A stretch of 64,000 nucleotides of DNA from Spirochaetota bacterium (GTDB taxonomy: Bacteria; Spirochaetota; UBA4802; UB4802). Where the stretch lies: NCBI GenBank assembly GCA_040756435.1, contig JBFLZD010000012.1, positions 1 to 64,000 of the forward strand, read 5' to 3'. A program made the translations under genes and the position numbers. This document shows positions 11,187 to 19,065 of the stretch, one piece after another (position 1 is the stretch's first letter; every line of letters begins with the position of its first letter). The notes under the pieces are model-generated. The model ran no database searches, was not told the origin of the DNA, and was given only the letters and a program-made list of their open reading frames with translations.

Positions 11187-12230
11187 TTACCATATGCTAT
11201 CAAGCACACGTTTACAATAGGGAATATTTTCATTCATATCCCTGAAAGGCTCTGATAGGTGCTTCATCCCTGCTTTACGACATATAGCCTCATATTTACA
11301 TAAAGAACATATTGTAGCATCTTTTCCAACTGTGTCCATATAATCCTGGGATGAAATGATACGAATAATTTCACCCGGGCTGTATACTCCTAATGATTGA
11401 TGTATGGAATGAGCTACCGTAATGCGTTTATCAGCCAATATTGTGATTTTCCCTGGTCTTACCAGTTGTGGTGTATTGCAAAACCATGGCAATTGTAATA
11501 TGTGAGCTGCAACTGTTGCAAGAGGGTTTTCAAGCAATGAAACATTAAAACCATATACATTTAACATAGAAACCATTTTTACTAATGATAGAAAATCATC
11601 AGGTGATAACAATTCATTGGATATATCAAAACCATTATTGGCAACACGAATAAGTTGTATTAAGGTAATTTCCTTTATACCTGGAAATTTCTTGTATGCC
11701 CATTGTATAAAATGTGGTACATGTGGTAAAAGGCTTTTTCCAATCACGCAGAAAAGATATACTGGAATAGTATGGTATAGTGCCATTTCAATCCCTTGTG
11801 TTGTTTTAACAAAAGAATTATAACCACGGAAAGTATCATGTATTGCTTCAAATCCCAATAAGCTGATAGAAAGATTCAATTCTTTTATAGATTCAAGTTG
11901 CTGTAATGTTTTACAATCTAACAAAAATCCATTTGTATTTAAAAAAATTGACTCATAACCCATTGAAATAGCATCTTTTAAAATATCAAAAAGATATCCC
12001 CACAATAGTGGTTCACCTCCTGTTATATGGAGATGTCGATAGCCAATTTCGTAACCTTCCATTAGTATGGAGAATACTGTTTCAAAATCAAGATCATGAT
12101 ATTCAATACAACCAGATCGTACAAAGCAATAGGTACAGTTACTGGTACATCGTGAGGTAACTTCAATTGAAAGGTTTTCTTTCTTTACAGCTTCCAGAAT
12201 TTCAGATGGTATAGAATTAATCGCTGACAT
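11187..12230 (-). CDS. Radical SAM protein with SPASM-like C-terminal cysteines
   Basis: The frame opens at TTG 12248, overlapping the previous stop, but the ATG at 12230 has a good GTGGAG six bases ahead and is preferred (347 residues). The CxxxCxxC cluster motif (RCTSNCTYC) lies at Cys28, Cys32 and Cys35, followed by the SAM-contacting TGGEP motif. Near the C-terminus ICSLCKYEAIC plus a later Cys resemble the auxiliary-cluster cysteines of SPASM/twitch enzymes, which often modify peptides. The gene is directly downstream of and coupled to an isoprenyl-synthase-like gene, opposite a small protein and a sensor kinase. A peptide- or terpenoid-modifying role is inference. Confidence 0.85.
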   Translation of the reverse strand: MSAINSIPSEILEAVKKENLSIEVTSRCTSNCTYCFVRSGCIEYHDLDFETVFSILMEGYEIGYRHLHITGGEPLLWGYLFDILKDAISMGYESIFLNTNGFLLDCKTLQQLESIKELNLSISLLGFEAIHDTFRGYNSFVKTTQGIEMALYHTIPVYLFCVIGKSLLPHVPHFIQWAYKKFPGIKEITLIQLIRVANNGFDISNELLSPDDFLSLVKMVSMLNVYGFNVSLLENPLATVAAHILQLPWFCNTPQLVRPGKITILADKRITVAHSIHQSLGVYSPGEIIRIISSQDYMDTVGKDATICSLCKYEAICRKAGMKHLSEPFRDMNENIPYCKRVLDSIW

Positions 12231-12244
12231 TGCATTCTCCACTA

Positions 12245-13255
12245 TCAACTTCTATCTATCCCCTGAACAAAATGAACAAGTAATTTCATTATTTCATCTG
12301 AAAGGCCAGGAAGGCCAATATCTTCCACATGTTTTGCAGCAGTTTTTAATTCCTTAATAATCCTTTTTTTAAGAATAGGGATGACACCTGAATCCTGTAT
12401 CATTTCTTCAAGCATATTGATGTTATCATTTTTATGCTCTGGTATATTTTCCCCTTCAATTACGGTGGTTCCTATTTTTAAAAATTCATTCCAGCGACAA
12501 CGCACTTCCCCGGGCAGGCTAAGAGTCACTGCAGAATTCCGTCCATTATTCAGATCATCCATCATGTCCTGGATATCATCATATATCCGCCAGGCTAAAC
12601 CAAAACTCTCAAGTGAATTTTTGACACTTTCTTCCATAGATATGTCCCCTGCTAATTCTACAGCAAGCAGTGGGACAATAAGCCCCGTAGCCATTTGATC
12701 CCTGAAAATATGTAGATATTCTTCCAGGTCATCAATGACTTTATACGTGATCATACTTGCATAATATCTATCCAGACAGCTATTGACTATCTCCTCCCCT
12801 TTATGAATAATTGGGCATAAAATTGAAATAGAATCCCAGAATAGTTTCCATGCCTGACTTCGGATCAGGAGAGTCAAATGATCTGGTACAACCTGGCCAT
12901 CATTAATATGATTATCTAATGAATGAAGGAACATAACCATTGCATGAGCTATCGCAGCACGATACATAAACTCCTGTTTAACCTGTGTATCTGTACTCCT
13001 TGTTATGATATGAGGAATAATTGACCATATAGGTGAATAATAATTCCTGAAAAAATCCATATTTTCACCAGGCTCAATACCGGTATGTTGTATAAAGAAG
13101 ATCATTGCAGATGTTTGAACTGAACGGGGCAGAGAACGTACAAGGGTAATTATTGCATCGTTCAAAAGCACATAGAAAAATGCTCTGTATTCTTCACAAA
13201 TGCTCCCATTTTTGGCATAAGCATGCGAATGTTCATTATCATCCCATGATTGCAT
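12245..13255 (-). CDS. Class I isoprenyl diphosphate synthase-like protein
   Basis: The protein is all-helical, 336 residues from the ATG at 13255 (AGGTG six bases ahead; a GTG at 13264 is the longer alternative). The second aspartate-rich motif is intact as YDDIQDMMDD (about 226-233), followed by NGRNSAVTL as in polyprenyl synthetases. The first motif is reduced to LDNHIND (Asp114 and Asp119) in place of DDxxD. The fold family makes or transfers prenyl chains; ComQ, which prenylates the ComX pheromone, is a member. Only distant similarity is expected, so the product (free terpenoid or prenylated peptide) cannot be stated. Its stop overlaps the upstream TTG start of the radical SAM frame. Confidence 0.75.
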   Translation of the reverse strand: MQSWDDNEHSHAYAKNGSICEEYRAFFYVLLNDAIITLVRSLPRSVQTSAMIFFIQHTGIEPGENMDFFRNYYSPIWSIIPHIITRSTDTQVKQEFMYRAAIAHAMVMFLHSLDNHINDGQVVPDHLTLLIRSQAWKLFWDSISILCPIIHKGEEIVNSCLDRYYASMITYKVIDDLEEYLHIFRDQMATGLIVPLLAVELAGDISMEESVKNSLESFGLAWRIYDDIQDMMDDLNNGRNSAVTLSLPGEVRCRWNEFLKIGTTVIEGENIPEHKNDNINMLEEMIQDSGVIPILKKRIIKELKTAAKHVEDIGLPGLSDEIMKLLVHFVQGIDRS

Positions 13256-13430
13256 GAAGGACACCTATGAATTTTGAATGAAATAGTAATCTATAATATT
13301 AAAAACCGTAAACTTTTTTTTGACAATCAATAATTCTATTTTTCTTAGATATGATAAAATTTTGATTGATTTATTTCAGTATATCTACTCTATTTTAGAG
13401 CATAAAAAATGTATCAGGAGGTAACCAATC
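13256..13430. promoter_or_regulatory. Divergent promoter region between isoprenyl synthase and small-protein/kinase genes
   Basis: This 175-base AT-rich gap must carry both divergent promoters. A TTGACA box lies at 13320-13325 on the plus strand, but no good -10 box follows at 16-18 bases; TTAGAT at 19 bases is the nearest. The plus-strand gene has a strong TCAGGAGG ribosome site nine bases before its ATG. Confidence 0.5.
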
Positions 13431-13646
13431 ATGGCAGATTTTATTGATTTTATTGCAAAAGAAGCAGGGAATCGTGACGTTGGAAAGAAATTCATTGAGC
13501 TACTAAAAAAAGGTGATGCAGCAGAACTAAAGAGTTTTTTTGATTCAATTGATTATACTGGTGTATCACTTGATGATTGCAAAACTTTAATTAATAATAG
13601 ACAGAATATTATTAATTCAACTGAAACAAATCTTAAGGATTATTAA
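13431..13646 (+). CDS. 71-residue helical small protein, Nif11/precursor-like
   Basis: The product has two predicted helices (about 2-27 and 30-39), a turn, and a third short helix (about 46-62), then a polar tail ending in Tyr71. It has a single cysteine, Cys50, and no tryptophan. The pattern FIxFIAKE...KKFIELLKKGD...GVSLDDCKTLI resembles Nif11-type leader peptides and, in general shape, ComX pre-peptides; both comparisons are from memory. The ribosome site is strong and the stop is 3 bases before the GTG of the kinase gene, so the two are co-expressed. It may be a signal-peptide precursor modified by the divergent radical SAM and isoprenyl synthase genes, or a small regulator of the kinase. 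Confidence 0.7.
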   Translation: MADFIDFIAKEAGNRDVGKKFIELLKKGDAAELKSFFDSIDYTGVSLDDCKTLINNRQNIINSTETNLKDY

Positions 13647-13649
13647 ATT

Positions 13650-16600
13650 GTGATTGTTTTTTACAGAATATTTATAGTATTATCATTTTTGCTCTTTGCA
13701 TTTCATACTCCAGTTTTGCCATTTGATCTTAAGGAAGATCATGTTTTTTCTTTTTCGGAAACAATTATGCCTTTACCAAAATTATGGTATTTCCGGGCTG
13801 AAGATTCAGATAGTTATAAAGAAAAAAATTTTGATCATTCTAACTGGCAGATCTGGGCTATAAATCAACCATGGCATACTCAAAAAGAATTTCGAAATTA
13901 TAAGGGAAATGTTTGGTACAGGCTTGTTTTCAACTGCATTCTTTGTAATGACTATAAAGGTGACCTTGCACTGTTAGTGCCAATACATTATCGAGGAGCT
14001 CAATTTTATTTAAATGGAGTATTGGTTAAAGAAACACGTCCTTTTATAAATGGCATTTCACCACTGAAGCTTGGCAAACCTGATATTATTGTTCTTCCCC
14101 ATGATATACTAAAAAATGAACACAATGTAATTGCTATACGAATGGGCTCTTTTGACTATAATTCTGGTTTTGAAGGCATACTGCACATAGGGACTCTGCC
14201 AGAAATAACTAAAAAATTTGTTCAGAATAATTTATATTACGGATTATTGTTGGGAATTAATTTATTTTTATCATTATATTTCATTATTCTCTATTACTAC
14301 CGACGAAAAGAACGATTTTATCTTTATTTTTCAGGTATGGCTTTTTCATTTGCGCTATGGGCTGCAGGATATGTTGGTATCATACTATGGATTATTGACT
14401 CAAGAATTGCCTATCTTGTTTCAGCATATTGTGGTTCTGTGAGCATTGTTATTTGTGCAATTTTATTTATCCATTCCTTTTTAACATTACGATACAACCT
14501 GTTTTCAAAAATTCTTCTTTCACTATTACTGTTTTTATTAATCTACTGCACTACGGAAATCGTTATTAGAGGATTAGTTGAATCATACCGTATGTATCTA
14601 TTCAGGATTTTCCTGTTAACCTGCCTGATATATATGATTTATACTGCTATTTTATGTATGTATGCAATCAGGATACGAAGACCTCATGCTGTAAAAATAT
14701 TAATAGGAATTGGAACAGCTTATTTATTTATATTCTTATCAATTCTTACATGGCTTCATATTATAGATTATACCCCTTCATCAATTGAACCATTTATGGC
14801 AATGATATTTGTTTTTTCTCTTGTCCTTGCTTCACGCTATGCACAGGTATTTTCCGATCTTGAAAAAGCCCATTCAAAACTTCTTGTTCTTGATAAGATG
14901 AAAGATGATTTCCTTGCTACTACCAGCCACGAACTTAAAACCCCACTCCATGGAATAATAGGGATTGCAGAAACTATTATGGATGGTTCATGCGGACCGG
15001 TGACCGAAAAACAAATACAAAATCTGGCACTTATACGGGATGAGGCATCGCATCTCAACACAATGGTAAGTGACATCCTTGATTTCAGCAAGCTGCGTGC
15101 AGGGAAGGTTGATCTATTCCTTGAGCATATACTGGTGGAACAGGTTGCAGCAACGATTGTATCACTATTAACTCCTGAAGCTAATAAAAAGGGACTATCG
15201 CTAACAGTAAAATCTTCAGGACCCTGTGAGATAGTTGCTGACCGTACCCGCCTAAGACAGATACTCATTAACCTGGTGGGAAATGCTATTAAATTTTCAG
15301 ATAAAGGCACTATTACCGTAAATGTAGAATCATATAACGAGGGTGTAATAATTTCAGTGAGCGATGAAGGCCCGGGTATAGACGATAGCGATAGAGAAAG
15401 GATATGGAATCCATTTGTACAGGCAGAAAGCGCAGACAGTCGTCATTATGGAGGTACAGGCCTTGGACTCCCAATAACAAAATATTTAGTGGAACTTCAT
15501 GGTGGGTCCATTCATATTGAAAGCCAAAAAGGTAGGGGAACATCCTTCATTGTTACACTCCCAAAAGAGCCCAAAACCCGTGGTATACAAAAAATCAAAC
15601 AAATTGAAGCAGAAACTGATAGCCTTGTGCTACCTCAAGAAATTGCTCCTTCATCTTTTGAACAGGATGAAGCTCTTGAAAAAATCCCATTTTTCACAAA
15701 AGCTAAAATCCTGGTTGTTGATGACGATGAGGTTAATCGCAAAGTAATTGAGGGTTTCTGTACAATAGCAGGATATGAACTAATACCTGCATACGATGGA
15801 CCAACAGCTCTTGAACTTATGGAAAAACACAACATTGATCTTGTACTTCTGGATCTCATGCTTCCTGGAATGAGCGGATATGAAGTATGCCAGAAAATAC
15901 GCCAGGCAGAAAAATTTATTAACATCCCCATTATTATGGTAACAGCTCGCGATAGTGCATCAGATATGGTGCGGGGTTTTGTTACCGGTGCCAATGATTA
16001 CATTACCAAGCCATTTACCCGAAGTGAGCTACTCATCAGGATTGAGAATCAATTAGCCATTAAACAAATGCTGGAAATAGAGCGTTCAATTGTGCATGAA
16101 CTCAATAAAGAGATGGAATTGAACAGAGGTCTTTATCAAAGAAGTATTGAGTTAAAGCAGATGGCAACGCAAATACTTTCCTGGGAGCGGGTAATCAAGG
16201 AAGATATGGAAGTTGCCAAAGTTTTCCAGAAACGTCTCATGGCATGCCCCACACATATACCAGGACTCCAATTCCATGTTATGTACCATCCATTAGCAGA
16301 GTTAAGTGGTGATGTGTATGATATTATTACACTCACTCCAGATATCATCAGGATATTTATAGCTGATGCTACCGGTCACGGGATTACTGCTTCACTTAAT
16401 ACTATAAAAATTCTTTCAGAGTACTCATCTGTTAAGGAAACAATGCATTCACCGCAGGATTTGCTCACCTTTCTAAACCAGCGATTCATGGAATTATTCA
16501 AGGATTATGCAATAGTTTTTACCTGCCTTATTGCTGATATTCATCTGAATGAAGGCAAACTATCAATAGTTTCAGCAGGTCACCCTCCTGCATGCGTAAT

Positions 16601-16931
16601 ATCAGATGGGATAGTTAATTTTATTAAACCCCATGGCCCAATCATTGGGCTTTCTTCCAACTATAAATATCAGCCAACAATAGTTCCTTTTAAAAAGAAA
16701 GATACAGTGCTTCTTTATACTGATGGACTGCCCGAATTCATTTATGCTCAAAGTAAAAACTTACAAGATTCTTTTAAAAATGAGTATGATAAGCTAAAAG
16801 AAATAATTGAAGGGCAAAATACTACTGGCTCATTAGAAAATCTGTGTAGATCACTTATGGGATTAAATTCTAATAGTTTTAACACATTTATCAATGACGA
16901 TATAACTATCATTGCTTTTCAGAAAGAATAA
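13650..16931 (+). CDS. Hybrid sensor histidine kinase with receiver and SpoIIE-type phosphatase
   Basis: The 1093-residue protein has a signal anchor and then a beta-galactosidase-like jelly-roll sensor (about 30-180). Seven to eight membrane helices follow (about 195-400, 7TMR-DISM type), then HisKA with phospho-acceptor His427 (SHELKTPLHG) and HATPase_c (NAIKF, DEGPGI, GGTGLGL). A receiver domain follows with Asp735 and the VDDDE acid pocket, and last a PPM/SpoIIE serine phosphatase (about 850-1090) whose metal aspartates are kept in SGDVYD, ADATGHG and TDGLPE. Output is thus protein dephosphorylation rather than DNA binding, as in partner-switching. The start is GTG at 13650, three bases after the small protein's stop. 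Confidence 0.93.
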   Translation: MIVFYRIFIVLSFLLFAFHTPVLPFDLKEDHVFSFSETIMPLPKLWYFRAEDSDSYKEKNFDHSNWQIWAINQPWHTQKEFRNYKGNVWYRLVFNCILCNDYKGDLALLVPIHYRGAQFYLNGVLVKETRPFINGISPLKLGKPDIIVLPHDILKNEHNVIAIRMGSFDYNSGFEGILHIGTLPEITKKFVQNNLYYGLLLGINLFLSLYFIILYYYRRKERFYLYFSGMAFSFALWAAGYVGIILWIIDSRIAYLVSAYCGSVSIVICAILFIHSFLTLRYNLFSKILLSLLLFLLIYCTTEIVIRGLVESYRMYLFRIFLLTCLIYMIYTAILCMYAIRIRRPHAVKILIGIGTAYLFIFLSILTWLHIIDYTPSSIEPFMAMIFVFSLVLASRYAQVFSDLEKAHSKLLVLDKMKDDFLATTSHELKTPLHGIIGIAETIMDGSCGPVTEKQIQNLALIRDEASHLNTMVSDILDFSKLRAGKVDLFLEHILVEQVAATIVSLLTPEANKKGLSLTVKSSGPCEIVADRTRLRQILINLVGNAIKFSDKGTITVNVESYNEGVIISVSDEGPGIDDSDRERIWNPFVQAESADSRHYGGTGLGLPITKYLVELHGGSIHIESQKGRGTSFIVTLPKEPKTRGIQKIKQIEAETDSLVLPQEIAPSSFEQDEALEKIPFFTKAKILVVDDDEVNRKVIEGFCTIAGYELIPAYDGPTALELMEKHNIDLVLLDLMLPGMSGYEVCQKIRQAEKFINIPIIMVTARDSASDMVRGFVTGANDYITKPFTRSELLIRIENQLAIKQMLEIERSIVHELNKEMELNRGLYQRSIELKQMATQILSWERVIKEDMEVAKVFQKRLMACPTHIPGLQFHVMYHPLAELSGDVYDIITLTPDIIRIFIADATGHGITASLNTIKILSEYSSVKETMHSPQDLLTFLNQRFMELFKDYAIVFTCLIADIHLNEGKLSIVSAGHPPACVISDGIVNFIKPHGPIIGLSSNYKYQPTIVPFKKKDTVLLYTDGLPEFIYAQSKNLQDSFKNEYDKLKEIIEGQNTTGSLENLCRSLMGLNSNSFNTFINDDITIIAFQKE

Positions 16932-17052: not shown

Positions 17053-19065
17053 ATGCATTATAAACTCTCTTTAGTTAAAAATGTATTATCACAGCATATT
17101 ATATCATTACGCAAAAAAAAGGTATTCATAGTATTCTATATTTTTATCACAATTTTATATGCCACCCATTTATCAGGACAATCATCTGAAAAAAAAATAA
17201 ATATACTTGTATATCCTTTCACTAATTCCGGCAATGCTCAGTATTCGTGGATATCTACTGGCATGACACAATCAGTCATATCCGATCTTTCCAAAATCTC
17301 CAGCATATCTGTATTTACTGAAGAGGACAGAAAAAAAGCCATTCAAGAGATTGAATTAGGCATGACTGGTCTTGTAAAGGAAAGCGACGTTGTCAAGGTT
17401 GGCACCATTATGGGTGCGCAGCTTATATGTTCTGGTAATTATACCGTTACCGGTAACAGAATACGAGTTAACGCAAAATTGGTTTCTGTTGAAAAGGCAA
17501 TTGTTGATAAAGCAATTTCTCTTGATGGTACTGTTGATAATCTTTTTGAATTGCAGGACAGGATTGTTACGGAGCTTATGTCCACTGCACAACAAACAAA
17601 CATTCCCGGAACCAGGAAACCTGTTTTTACATTAAAAGATAAGGAAAATATCAAAAAATTACCTCGTCCTGATATAAAAGCATTTGAGCTGTATGCAAAA
17701 GGCCTTGAAAATTACGATACAAATCCTCAAGAAGCTTTGAAGTATTTTAACCAGGCACTTTCAATTGATACAAACTATTTTTATGCATACCTTGCTGCTG
17801 GTGGGGTATGCAGTATTCTGGGGAATCTTGACAATGCTGAAAACTATTATGCAAGAGCAGTAGAAATATTAAAAAAAGAAGGGCTTGATAACTCTTTTGA
17901 ATCAGCATCTCTGTATTATACCATGGGGATTAATTTCTGGAATAGGGGCGATAGTGACCATGCAGTAACCTTTGCTGTCAAGGCATTCAATATCCTTGCA
18001 GCATTAGGTGAAGATAACTCCCGACTGGCAGCTGCCGTCCTCATGCTGTGTGGTGCAGGATATAGAACCAAGAACAGAATAGATGATGCACTCAAGTGTA
18101 CTCAACAATCCATAACAATCTACGAATATCTTGATTTGCAGAATACCAGCGATTATGCATGGGGGCTTAACAATCTGGCGGTAATCCATTCAATGGTGGG
18201 AAATCACAAAAAATCTGTGGAATTGTATAAGCAATGTTTAAAGATATGGGATACTTTAGGGTTAACAGTATCAATGGGGACCGCTTATACCTATTGCCAG
18301 ATTGGATATGAATATTATGTGTTGAAACAATACGAAAAAGCATACGACAATCTTATTAAAGGGAGAGATTATTGTATTAGTTTAAAACTTGATAATTCAT
18401 TTAATTTTGCATATTACATGTGGTATCTTTCCCTTGTCTACAGCGAAGGTTTTGGAGACTATTGCATCGCAGCTGAATTCCTTAATACATCAGTGAATAT
18501 CTTCCAAAAACAGAAAAATCCTGTTGCAAATGATGCGCAAAAATCATTGCAGGAATTAGAAAAAAAATGCGGATTTATTAGTGCAAAAAGAAAAAAAGAG
18601 GAAGAACTAATCTCTGCAGCTGTCAATGGTAATATAACAGGCGTTCAGAAGCTTATTAAAGAAAAAGTTAACATTAATGCCAGAGCATACTGGAAAGGCG
18701 AATCAGCACTGTATAACGCCGCATCTGTAGGCAATATGGACATGGTTAAATTCCTTGTTGAAAATGGTGCTGATGTTAATATTCGTATGTATAAAGGATT
18801 TACACCACTTATGGTAGCTATATATAAAGGACATTATGATGTTATCCAATATCTCCTTTCAAAAAATGCACTGGTTAATATGCCTGACTGCCGCGGAGAA
18901 ACTCCATTGATGTTGGCGGTCAGTACAAATACCAGTGATAAAATTATTGAACTTCTTATAACAAAAGGCGCTGACGTCAATGCCAGGGATGATAAAGGTG
19001 AATCTGTAGTACAGAAGGCAAACTCAAAGACAGCATTAATATTACGAAAACATGGGGCAAAGTAG
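17053..19065 (+). CDS. CsgG/FlgO-like domain protein with TPR and ankyrin repeats
   Basis: The 670-residue protein starts with a basic stretch and a signal anchor (about 24-41). Residues about 48-180 match the CsgG/FlgO/TolB-N type fold (INILVYPFTNSG, then GAQLICSGNYTVTGNRIRVNAKLVS). Five or more tetratricopeptide repeats follow (about 205-500). Four ankyrin repeats close it (about 525-665) with standard VKFLVENGADVNIR and ELLITKGADVNARD units. It probably acts in the periplasm as an assembly scaffold. The repeats suggest several protein partners, none identifiable here. A GCTCTGACCCC repeat lies between the kinase gene and this one. Confidence 0.8.
   Translation: MHYKLSLVKNVLSQHIISLRKKKVFIVFYIFITILYATHLSGQSSEKKINILVYPFTNSGNAQYSWISTGMTQSVISDLSKISSISVFTEEDRKKAIQEIELGMTGLVKESDVVKVGTIMGAQLICSGNYTVTGNRIRVNAKLVSVEKAIVDKAISLDGTVDNLFELQDRIVTELMSTAQQTNIPGTRKPVFTLKDKENIKKLPRPDIKAFELYAKGLENYDTNPQEALKYFNQALSIDTNYFYAYLAAGGVCSILGNLDNAENYYARAVEILKKEGLDNSFESASLYYTMGINFWNRGDSDHAVTFAVKAFNILAALGEDNSRLAAAVLMLCGAGYRTKNRIDDALKCTQQSITIYEYLDLQNTSDYAWGLNNLAVIHSMVGNHKKSVELYKQCLKIWDTLGLTVSMGTAYTYCQIGYEYYVLKQYEKAYDNLIKGRDYCISLKLDNSFNFAYYMWYLSLVYSEGFGDYCIAAEFLNTSVNIFQKQKNPVANDAQKSLQELEKKCGFISAKRKKEEELISAAVNGNITGVQKLIKEKVNINARAYWKGESALYNAASVGNMDMVKFLVENGADVNIRMYKGFTPLMVAIYKGHYDVIQYLLSKNALVNMPDCRGETPLMLAVSTNTSDKIIELLITKGADVNARDDKGESVVQKANSKTALILRKHGAK

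Follow-up and report, generated by a model that had tools for sequence, protein, structure and literature searches.

The window considered here is a stretch of 64,000 nucleotides from a Spirochaetota bacterium (assembly GCA_040756435.1, contig JBFLZD010000012.1, positions 1 to 64,000), whose 3.6 Mb genome (G000) is split over 126 contigs. At 11187-16931 it carries a compact divergent locus of four genes, and the open reading frames (ORFs), whose domains were read from a Pfam scan, were found where a first-pass annotation of this DNA had placed them. On the minus strand, the genes for a SPASM-like radical S-adenosylmethionine (SAM) enzyme (11187..12248; 353 amino acids (aa)) and for an isoprenyl enzyme of predicted trans-prenyl-synthase fold (12245..13264; 339 aa) overlap by 4 bases and form one operon. 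The other operon, on the plus strand, consists of the gene for a small protein, a candidate precursor peptide (13431..13646; 71 aa), and that for a membrane hybrid kinase (13650..16931; 1093 aa), which begins 3 bases past the stop codon of the small gene. The two operons diverge from a 166-base spacer (13265..13430) that contains the ribosome-binding site of the small gene, AGGAGGT; promoter and terminator scans gave scores no better than those of shuffles. In the closest named relative, a Spirochaetota metagenome genome, the gene order is identical and the radical SAM enzyme is 71% identical.

The most consistent feature of the small protein is its last residue. A tyrosine directly before the stop codon (Tyr71 in the window; codon 13641..13643, plus strand) is found in 35 of 37 distinct homologues, compared with 7 of 211 ORFs of at least 200 aa in the same loci. 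The residue preceding it varies (G, D, L, S, A, K, P, N, Q or C), as do the length and sequence of the whole tail, of which this tyrosine is the only conserved feature. The first-pass annotation had pointed to both Cys50 and Tyr71. The tyrosine is nearly invariant and is the proposed site of modification; Cys50 is missing in several members, lies in the leader part and was ruled out as the modified residue. The tail contains no conserved cysteine, and only 3 of the 37 proteins have a tryptophan among their final 12 residues.

The preceding part of the protein (approximately residues 1-60) resembles the leaders of Nif11/NHLP-type peptides. As a single sequence the 71-aa protein has no Pfam match, an Exo70 match (E=0.16) being set aside as chance or local similarity, and a profile built from 15 sequences retrieved further members; its weak matches to fragments of longer proteins (in G007, G012 and others) were likewise set aside as chance or local similarity. 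Compared by hhalign with Nif11 leader profiles made from Desulfobacterota sequences, the family gave a probability of 95.4 and a score of 41.6, against maxima of 16.7 for 60 column shuffles and 14.4 for 54 segments of other real-protein alignments. The match holds for the members of each of the two taxonomic groups described below separately (scores 37.6 and 42.2). Single-sequence scans of 20 members were weak (PF07862, 1/20, best E=0.038; TIGR03798, 2/20, best E=0.017), none of the 20 reached the cut-off of a Nif11/NHLP family model or matched the ComX model (PF05952), and a TIGR03798 search of the deltaproteobacterial genomes returned zero matches. Because no single member scores significantly, the small protein is, on these profile comparisons, a divergent Nif11/NHLP-type leader peptide and not a standard member of that family. 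Its structural model, of moderate confidence (predicted local distance difference test (pLDDT) 67.6), places helices at residues 2-11, 15-27, 30-39 and 47-55; Foldseek found nothing significant with this model (E of 4 or worse), and the top matches of the profile among solved structures were designed helical proteins.

The radical SAM enzyme is, as first annotated, SPASM-like (Radical_SAM, E=6e-18). It has the CxxxCxxC site and four invariant cysteines (C313, C316, C322 and C344) that resemble one auxiliary-cluster site; in A5 numbering, the invariant residues are C29/C33/C36 and C309/C312/C318/C340. In our reading of the alignment the auxiliary pattern is CX2CX5C...C, with Arg and His at the presumed first ligands of the other SPASM cluster. 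The closest solved relatives of its profile are SkfB (best, E=6.5e-19), cytosylglucuronate decarboxylase, MoaA, anSME and PqqE. SkfB, a SPASM/Twitch maturase, has an N-terminal RRE domain and forms cysteine thioethers (PMC6231123), whereas in the present enzyme the radical SAM core begins around residue 20-28, leaving no room for an RRE domain, and the peptide tail offers no conserved cysteine.

The isoprenyl enzyme matches polyprenyl_synt only at E=0.004, under the curated cut-off, and its profile found only weak matches among solved structures (best E=0.019). Its AlphaFold model (pLDDT 85.7) was matched by Foldseek to trans-prenyl synthases and to Ord1, a free-tryptophan prenyltransferase, which supports a trans-prenyl-synthase fold as modelled. 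The first Asp-rich motif has altered spacing (D117-[DN]-H-x-x-D122, with N118 in the window), and the second is canonical (D229-D-x-x-D233), its DDxxD being invariant in the alignment. The enzyme, described in the first-pass annotation as of ComQ-family type, lacks the ComQ hallmark of a degenerate second motif. Three residues ahead of D229, R226 is nearly invariant among 17 sequences, at a position where Trp-directed peptide prenyltransferases have Gln (PMC13290415, PMC10853753).

The kinase has a signal-peptide-like start followed by Pfam domains that all score above cut-off: a 7TMR-DISM_7TM sensor domain (14229..14834), HisKA and HATPase_c (14898..15569), a Response_reg receiver (15708..16043) and a SpoIIE (PP2C-type) phosphatase output domain (16347..16922), all on the plus strand. 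Its sequence retains the H-box (SHELKTP), the receiver Asp and the SpoIIE metal-site motifs. In the Spirochaetota loci a 7TMR-DISM receptor is encoded downstream of the small gene, in the same orientation, and the output of that receptor is SpoIIE in most, HisKA_3 with PAS in two and a His_kinase module in one. The earlier description of a SpoIIE output in place of a DNA-binding regulator is therefore true of the window, and the output module varies elsewhere. Because the 7TMR-DISM part is constant while the output modules vary, this arrangement suggests one shared input with interchangeable outputs; that input would be the peptide product. In G380 the receptor beside the small gene is a short seven-transmembrane (7TM)-SpoIIE protein in which no histidine kinase domain was recognised (L113:6576-8645). 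Across the G000 genome there are 23 SpoIIE matches, that of the window kinase among them, suggesting an expanded partner-switching repertoire. Just 3' of the kinase gene, on the same strand (17053-19065), lies a gene for a protein with a FlgO-like start, TPR and ankyrin repeats.

A search for the same neighbourhood elsewhere, as the first-pass annotation had proposed, showed that the cassette recurs. The isoprenyl enzyme was matched in 17 of 59 relatives, nearly all with the same gene set nearby in variable order, and this recurrence, there and beyond, makes the cassette far more than a chance assembly. In a search of 393 genomes from the phylum, 21 had the small protein (threshold E below 1e-8), 21 the radical SAM enzyme and 18 the isoprenyl enzyme, with overlaps of 19 (small protein and radical SAM enzyme), 18 (isoprenyl and radical SAM enzymes) and 17 (isoprenyl enzyme and small protein). 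Fisher's exact p is below 1e-24 for every pair, values that overstate independence because these genomes share descent. The three genes thus occur almost only together. The first-pass annotation had named as counter-evidence the regular occurrence of the two enzymes without the small gene, and this is not what is seen: of the 21 genomes that encode the radical SAM enzyme, 19 also have the small gene, and the two that do not (G033 and G111) have the locus at a contig edge, a result that favours its hypothesis.

Other loci are incomplete too. The isoprenyl gene is missing in G032, again at a contig edge, and G018 and G030 have only the small gene and the kinase. In G003, which belongs to the genus of the window, the isoprenyl match ends at residue 146 and the adjoining radical SAM match starts at residue 144, a pattern that one deletion would leave, and the small gene and kinase appear intact. 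In G030 neither enzyme was found, and the small gene has lost both its ATG and the stop after its tyrosine. This genome is only 73% complete, but the neighbour of its kinase gene is the one that borders the isoprenyl gene in G009. Decay in these genomes follows function.

Three genomes have two or three copies of the small gene with a single radical SAM gene: G015 (L033, L079, L080), G027 (L029, L077) and G034 (L032, L078). G015 has, beside its one radical SAM gene, an additional peptide-kinase pair. Certain of the extra copies adjoin a 7TM kinase, and those in L077 and L078 also a KASIII/HMG-CoA-synthase-like gene. The copies at L077:10668-10892 and L079:9550-9843 represent a paralogous subfamily, distant from the enzymes, that ends in EEAIP(F/Y)LFLT(R/H). 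Similar-looking proteins of 520-550 aa are encoded beside the cassette at L032:6035-7618, L033:11396-12970 and L080:4640-6295, the first having no Pfam match.

The radical SAM profile, run against the genome collection, also picked up the family in Deltaproteobacteria/Desulfobacterota. The genes there run from a class III cyclase-AAA-TPR protein, which takes the place of the kinase, through the isoprenyl enzyme and then the radical SAM enzyme to the small protein. All sequences from this group fall on one side of a single branch of the radical SAM tree (support 90/87), and one exchange of sensor type would therefore suffice. Because the small protein, the isoprenyl enzyme and the radical SAM enzyme persist while the sensor changes, these three constitute the biosynthetic core. 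Several of these loci continue with a C25-family peptidase, another radical SAM protein and an FAD oxidoreductase; the C25-family cysteine peptidases, encoded with a propeptide beside the precursor gene (L090:7935-10058, L094:10568-12715 and L102:10355-12616), are candidate leader peptidases.

We consider it probable, on balance, that the locus produces a ribosomally synthesised peptide, modified at its C-terminal tyrosine by the radical SAM enzyme and the prenyltransferase, and also senses it. The 71-aa protein would be the precursor, its Nif11-like helical leader gripped by the enzymes and Tyr71 the residue acted upon. The radical SAM enzyme may alter this tyrosine, one precedent being oxidative decarboxylation in mycofactocin, and the isoprenyl enzyme, judged by analogy with peptide prenyltransferases, may add an isoprenyl chain to it. 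After cleavage, the mature product would leave the cell or remain in the envelope and bind the 7TM sensor of the kinase, whereupon a phosphorelay to the receiver would switch the SpoIIE phosphatase and, through it, a partner-switching (STAS/anti-sigma) module encoded elsewhere in the genome. The modified peptide signal read by the kinase, as first proposed, withstood all tests run, its chemistry and the ligand-receptor step being inferred. It may also be ventured, tentatively, that the products form an undescribed peptide family, radical-modified at tyrosine and prenylated by a tyrosine-recognising enzyme, and serve as a lipophilic signal, which in Spirochaetota would control a kinase/SpoIIE partner switch and in Deltaproteobacteria a cyclase.

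Several observations weigh against a tyrosine-modified peptide signal. Every characterised enzyme of this prenyltransferase type acts on Trp (PMC13290415), no RRE domain in the radical SAM enzyme or RRE gene in the locus of the window was recognised, and neither was a conserved exporter or leader peptidase in the Spirochaetota loci. Two members, one paralogue each from G015 and G027, have FLT(R/H) at the C terminus instead of tyrosine. The near-complete (almost closed) genome G380 lacks an isoprenyl enzyme but carries the small gene, the receptor and the radical SAM enzyme, together with another radical SAM protein and a methyltransferase. Finally, both Asp-rich motifs of the isoprenyl enzyme are present and conserved, so that it could produce a free isoprenoid. 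On that alternative, which we hold to be unlikely, the signal sensed by the kinase is a free isoprenoid or meroterpenoid product of the two enzymes, and the small protein serves as a scaffold or carrier or donates its C-terminal tyrosine. The extra genes of some loci would suit it, namely those for IPP-isomerase-like NUDIX proteins (L029, L037), FAD-binding oxidoreductases (L030, L034, L085), methyltransferases (L032, L038) and a second radical SAM protein (L104, L113). However, the small gene is hardly ever parted from the enzyme pair, its leader family serves peptide modification, and R226 stands in place of the Gln that precedes the second motif in Trp prenyltransferases (PMC13290415). In one variant of this alternative the tyrosine would be released from the peptide after its modification there, and that variant overlaps with the peptide signal that we favour.

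The tyrosine itself also recalls mycofactocin, in which the precursor MftA ends in Tyr and its SPASM-type radical SAM enzyme MftC decarboxylates that residue (PMC5264612). A redox cofactor pathway of the mycofactocin or pyrroloquinoline quinone (PQQ) type, in which a prenylated cofactor is built from the C-terminal tyrosine and the kinase has no role beyond regulating how that cofactor is used, would agree with a tail conserved only at this position. It is nonetheless improbable: mycofactocin needs the chaperone MftB, has the fixed tail IDGxCGVY, feeds a dehydrogenase cofactor pathway and involves no isoprenyl enzyme (PMC5264612), whereas none of the 37 small proteins has that tail, neither an RRE partner nor a conserved dehydrogenase was recognised in the loci, the radical SAM enzyme scores 37.5 bits against a cut-off of 265 for the mycofactocin model TIGR03962, and signalling proteins are the conserved neighbours in both groups. 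The position of the small gene upstream of a same-strand kinase gene in Spirochaetota, 3 bases away in the window, would fit a regulatory subunit of the kinase, with the two enzymes an unrelated adjacent operon. The deltaproteobacterial and Desulfobacterota loci, which keep the small gene and both enzymes without that kinase, together with the leader homology and the near-invariant C-terminal tyrosine, make this very improbable.

Of the systems known, PalP/PalX/PalQ of Paenibacillus alvei (PMC10853753) comes closest. It comprises a kinase, an NHLP precursor with a conserved C-terminal Trp and an isoprenoid-synthase-fold enzyme, PalQ, which prenylates the Trp of PalX only in the terminal position. 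A histidine kinase, an NHLP/Nif11-type precursor with a C-terminal aromatic residue and an enzyme of trans-prenyl-synthase fold are likewise conserved in a single cluster here, with Tyr instead of Trp at the terminus and Arg instead of Gln before the second Asp motif. The published cluster has three genes without a radical SAM enzyme and a Gram-positive host, and the parts of its description consulted mention no SpoIIE output. ComQXPA is more distant. The parallel drawn in the first-pass annotation holds for the list of parts, in that an isoprenyl enzyme, a small precursor and a membrane kinase share one locus and an aromatic residue lies near the precursor C terminus (PMC4008528, PMC5331326); as for homology, the leader is of Nif11/NHLP type, none of the 20 precursors scanned has a ComX match in Pfam, in ComQ the second Asp motif is degenerate and the target is an internal Trp, and ComQXPA uses a separate DNA-binding regulator, ComA. 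The MppE/MppC system shares the pairing of a Nif11-like leader with a prenyltransferase, the leader family being common to both by profile comparison, but MppC is of ABBA type and acts on a lanthipeptide Trp, and the leader is atypically long (PMC12715784). No description of the present cassette was found in the literature searched, which left out most subscription journals and therefore provides weak evidence of novelty. New relative to these systems are the tyrosine, the radical SAM enzyme, the varied tailoring enzymes, the mostly SpoIIE output and the distribution outside Firmicutes, where a census of ComQXPA found none (PMC4008528).

If the proposed reading is correct, prenylated-peptide communication in the style of ComQXP and PalPXQ would reach well beyond Firmicutes, with a radical enzyme and another target residue. 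Because the characterised enzymes all act on Trp (PMC13290415), a Tyr-directed prenyltransferase would have a new specificity, for which R226 is a simple candidate determinant. The peptide would then be a candidate cell-to-cell signal for Spirochaetota and Deltaproteobacteria, and a candidate ligand for the kinase/SpoIIE receptor.

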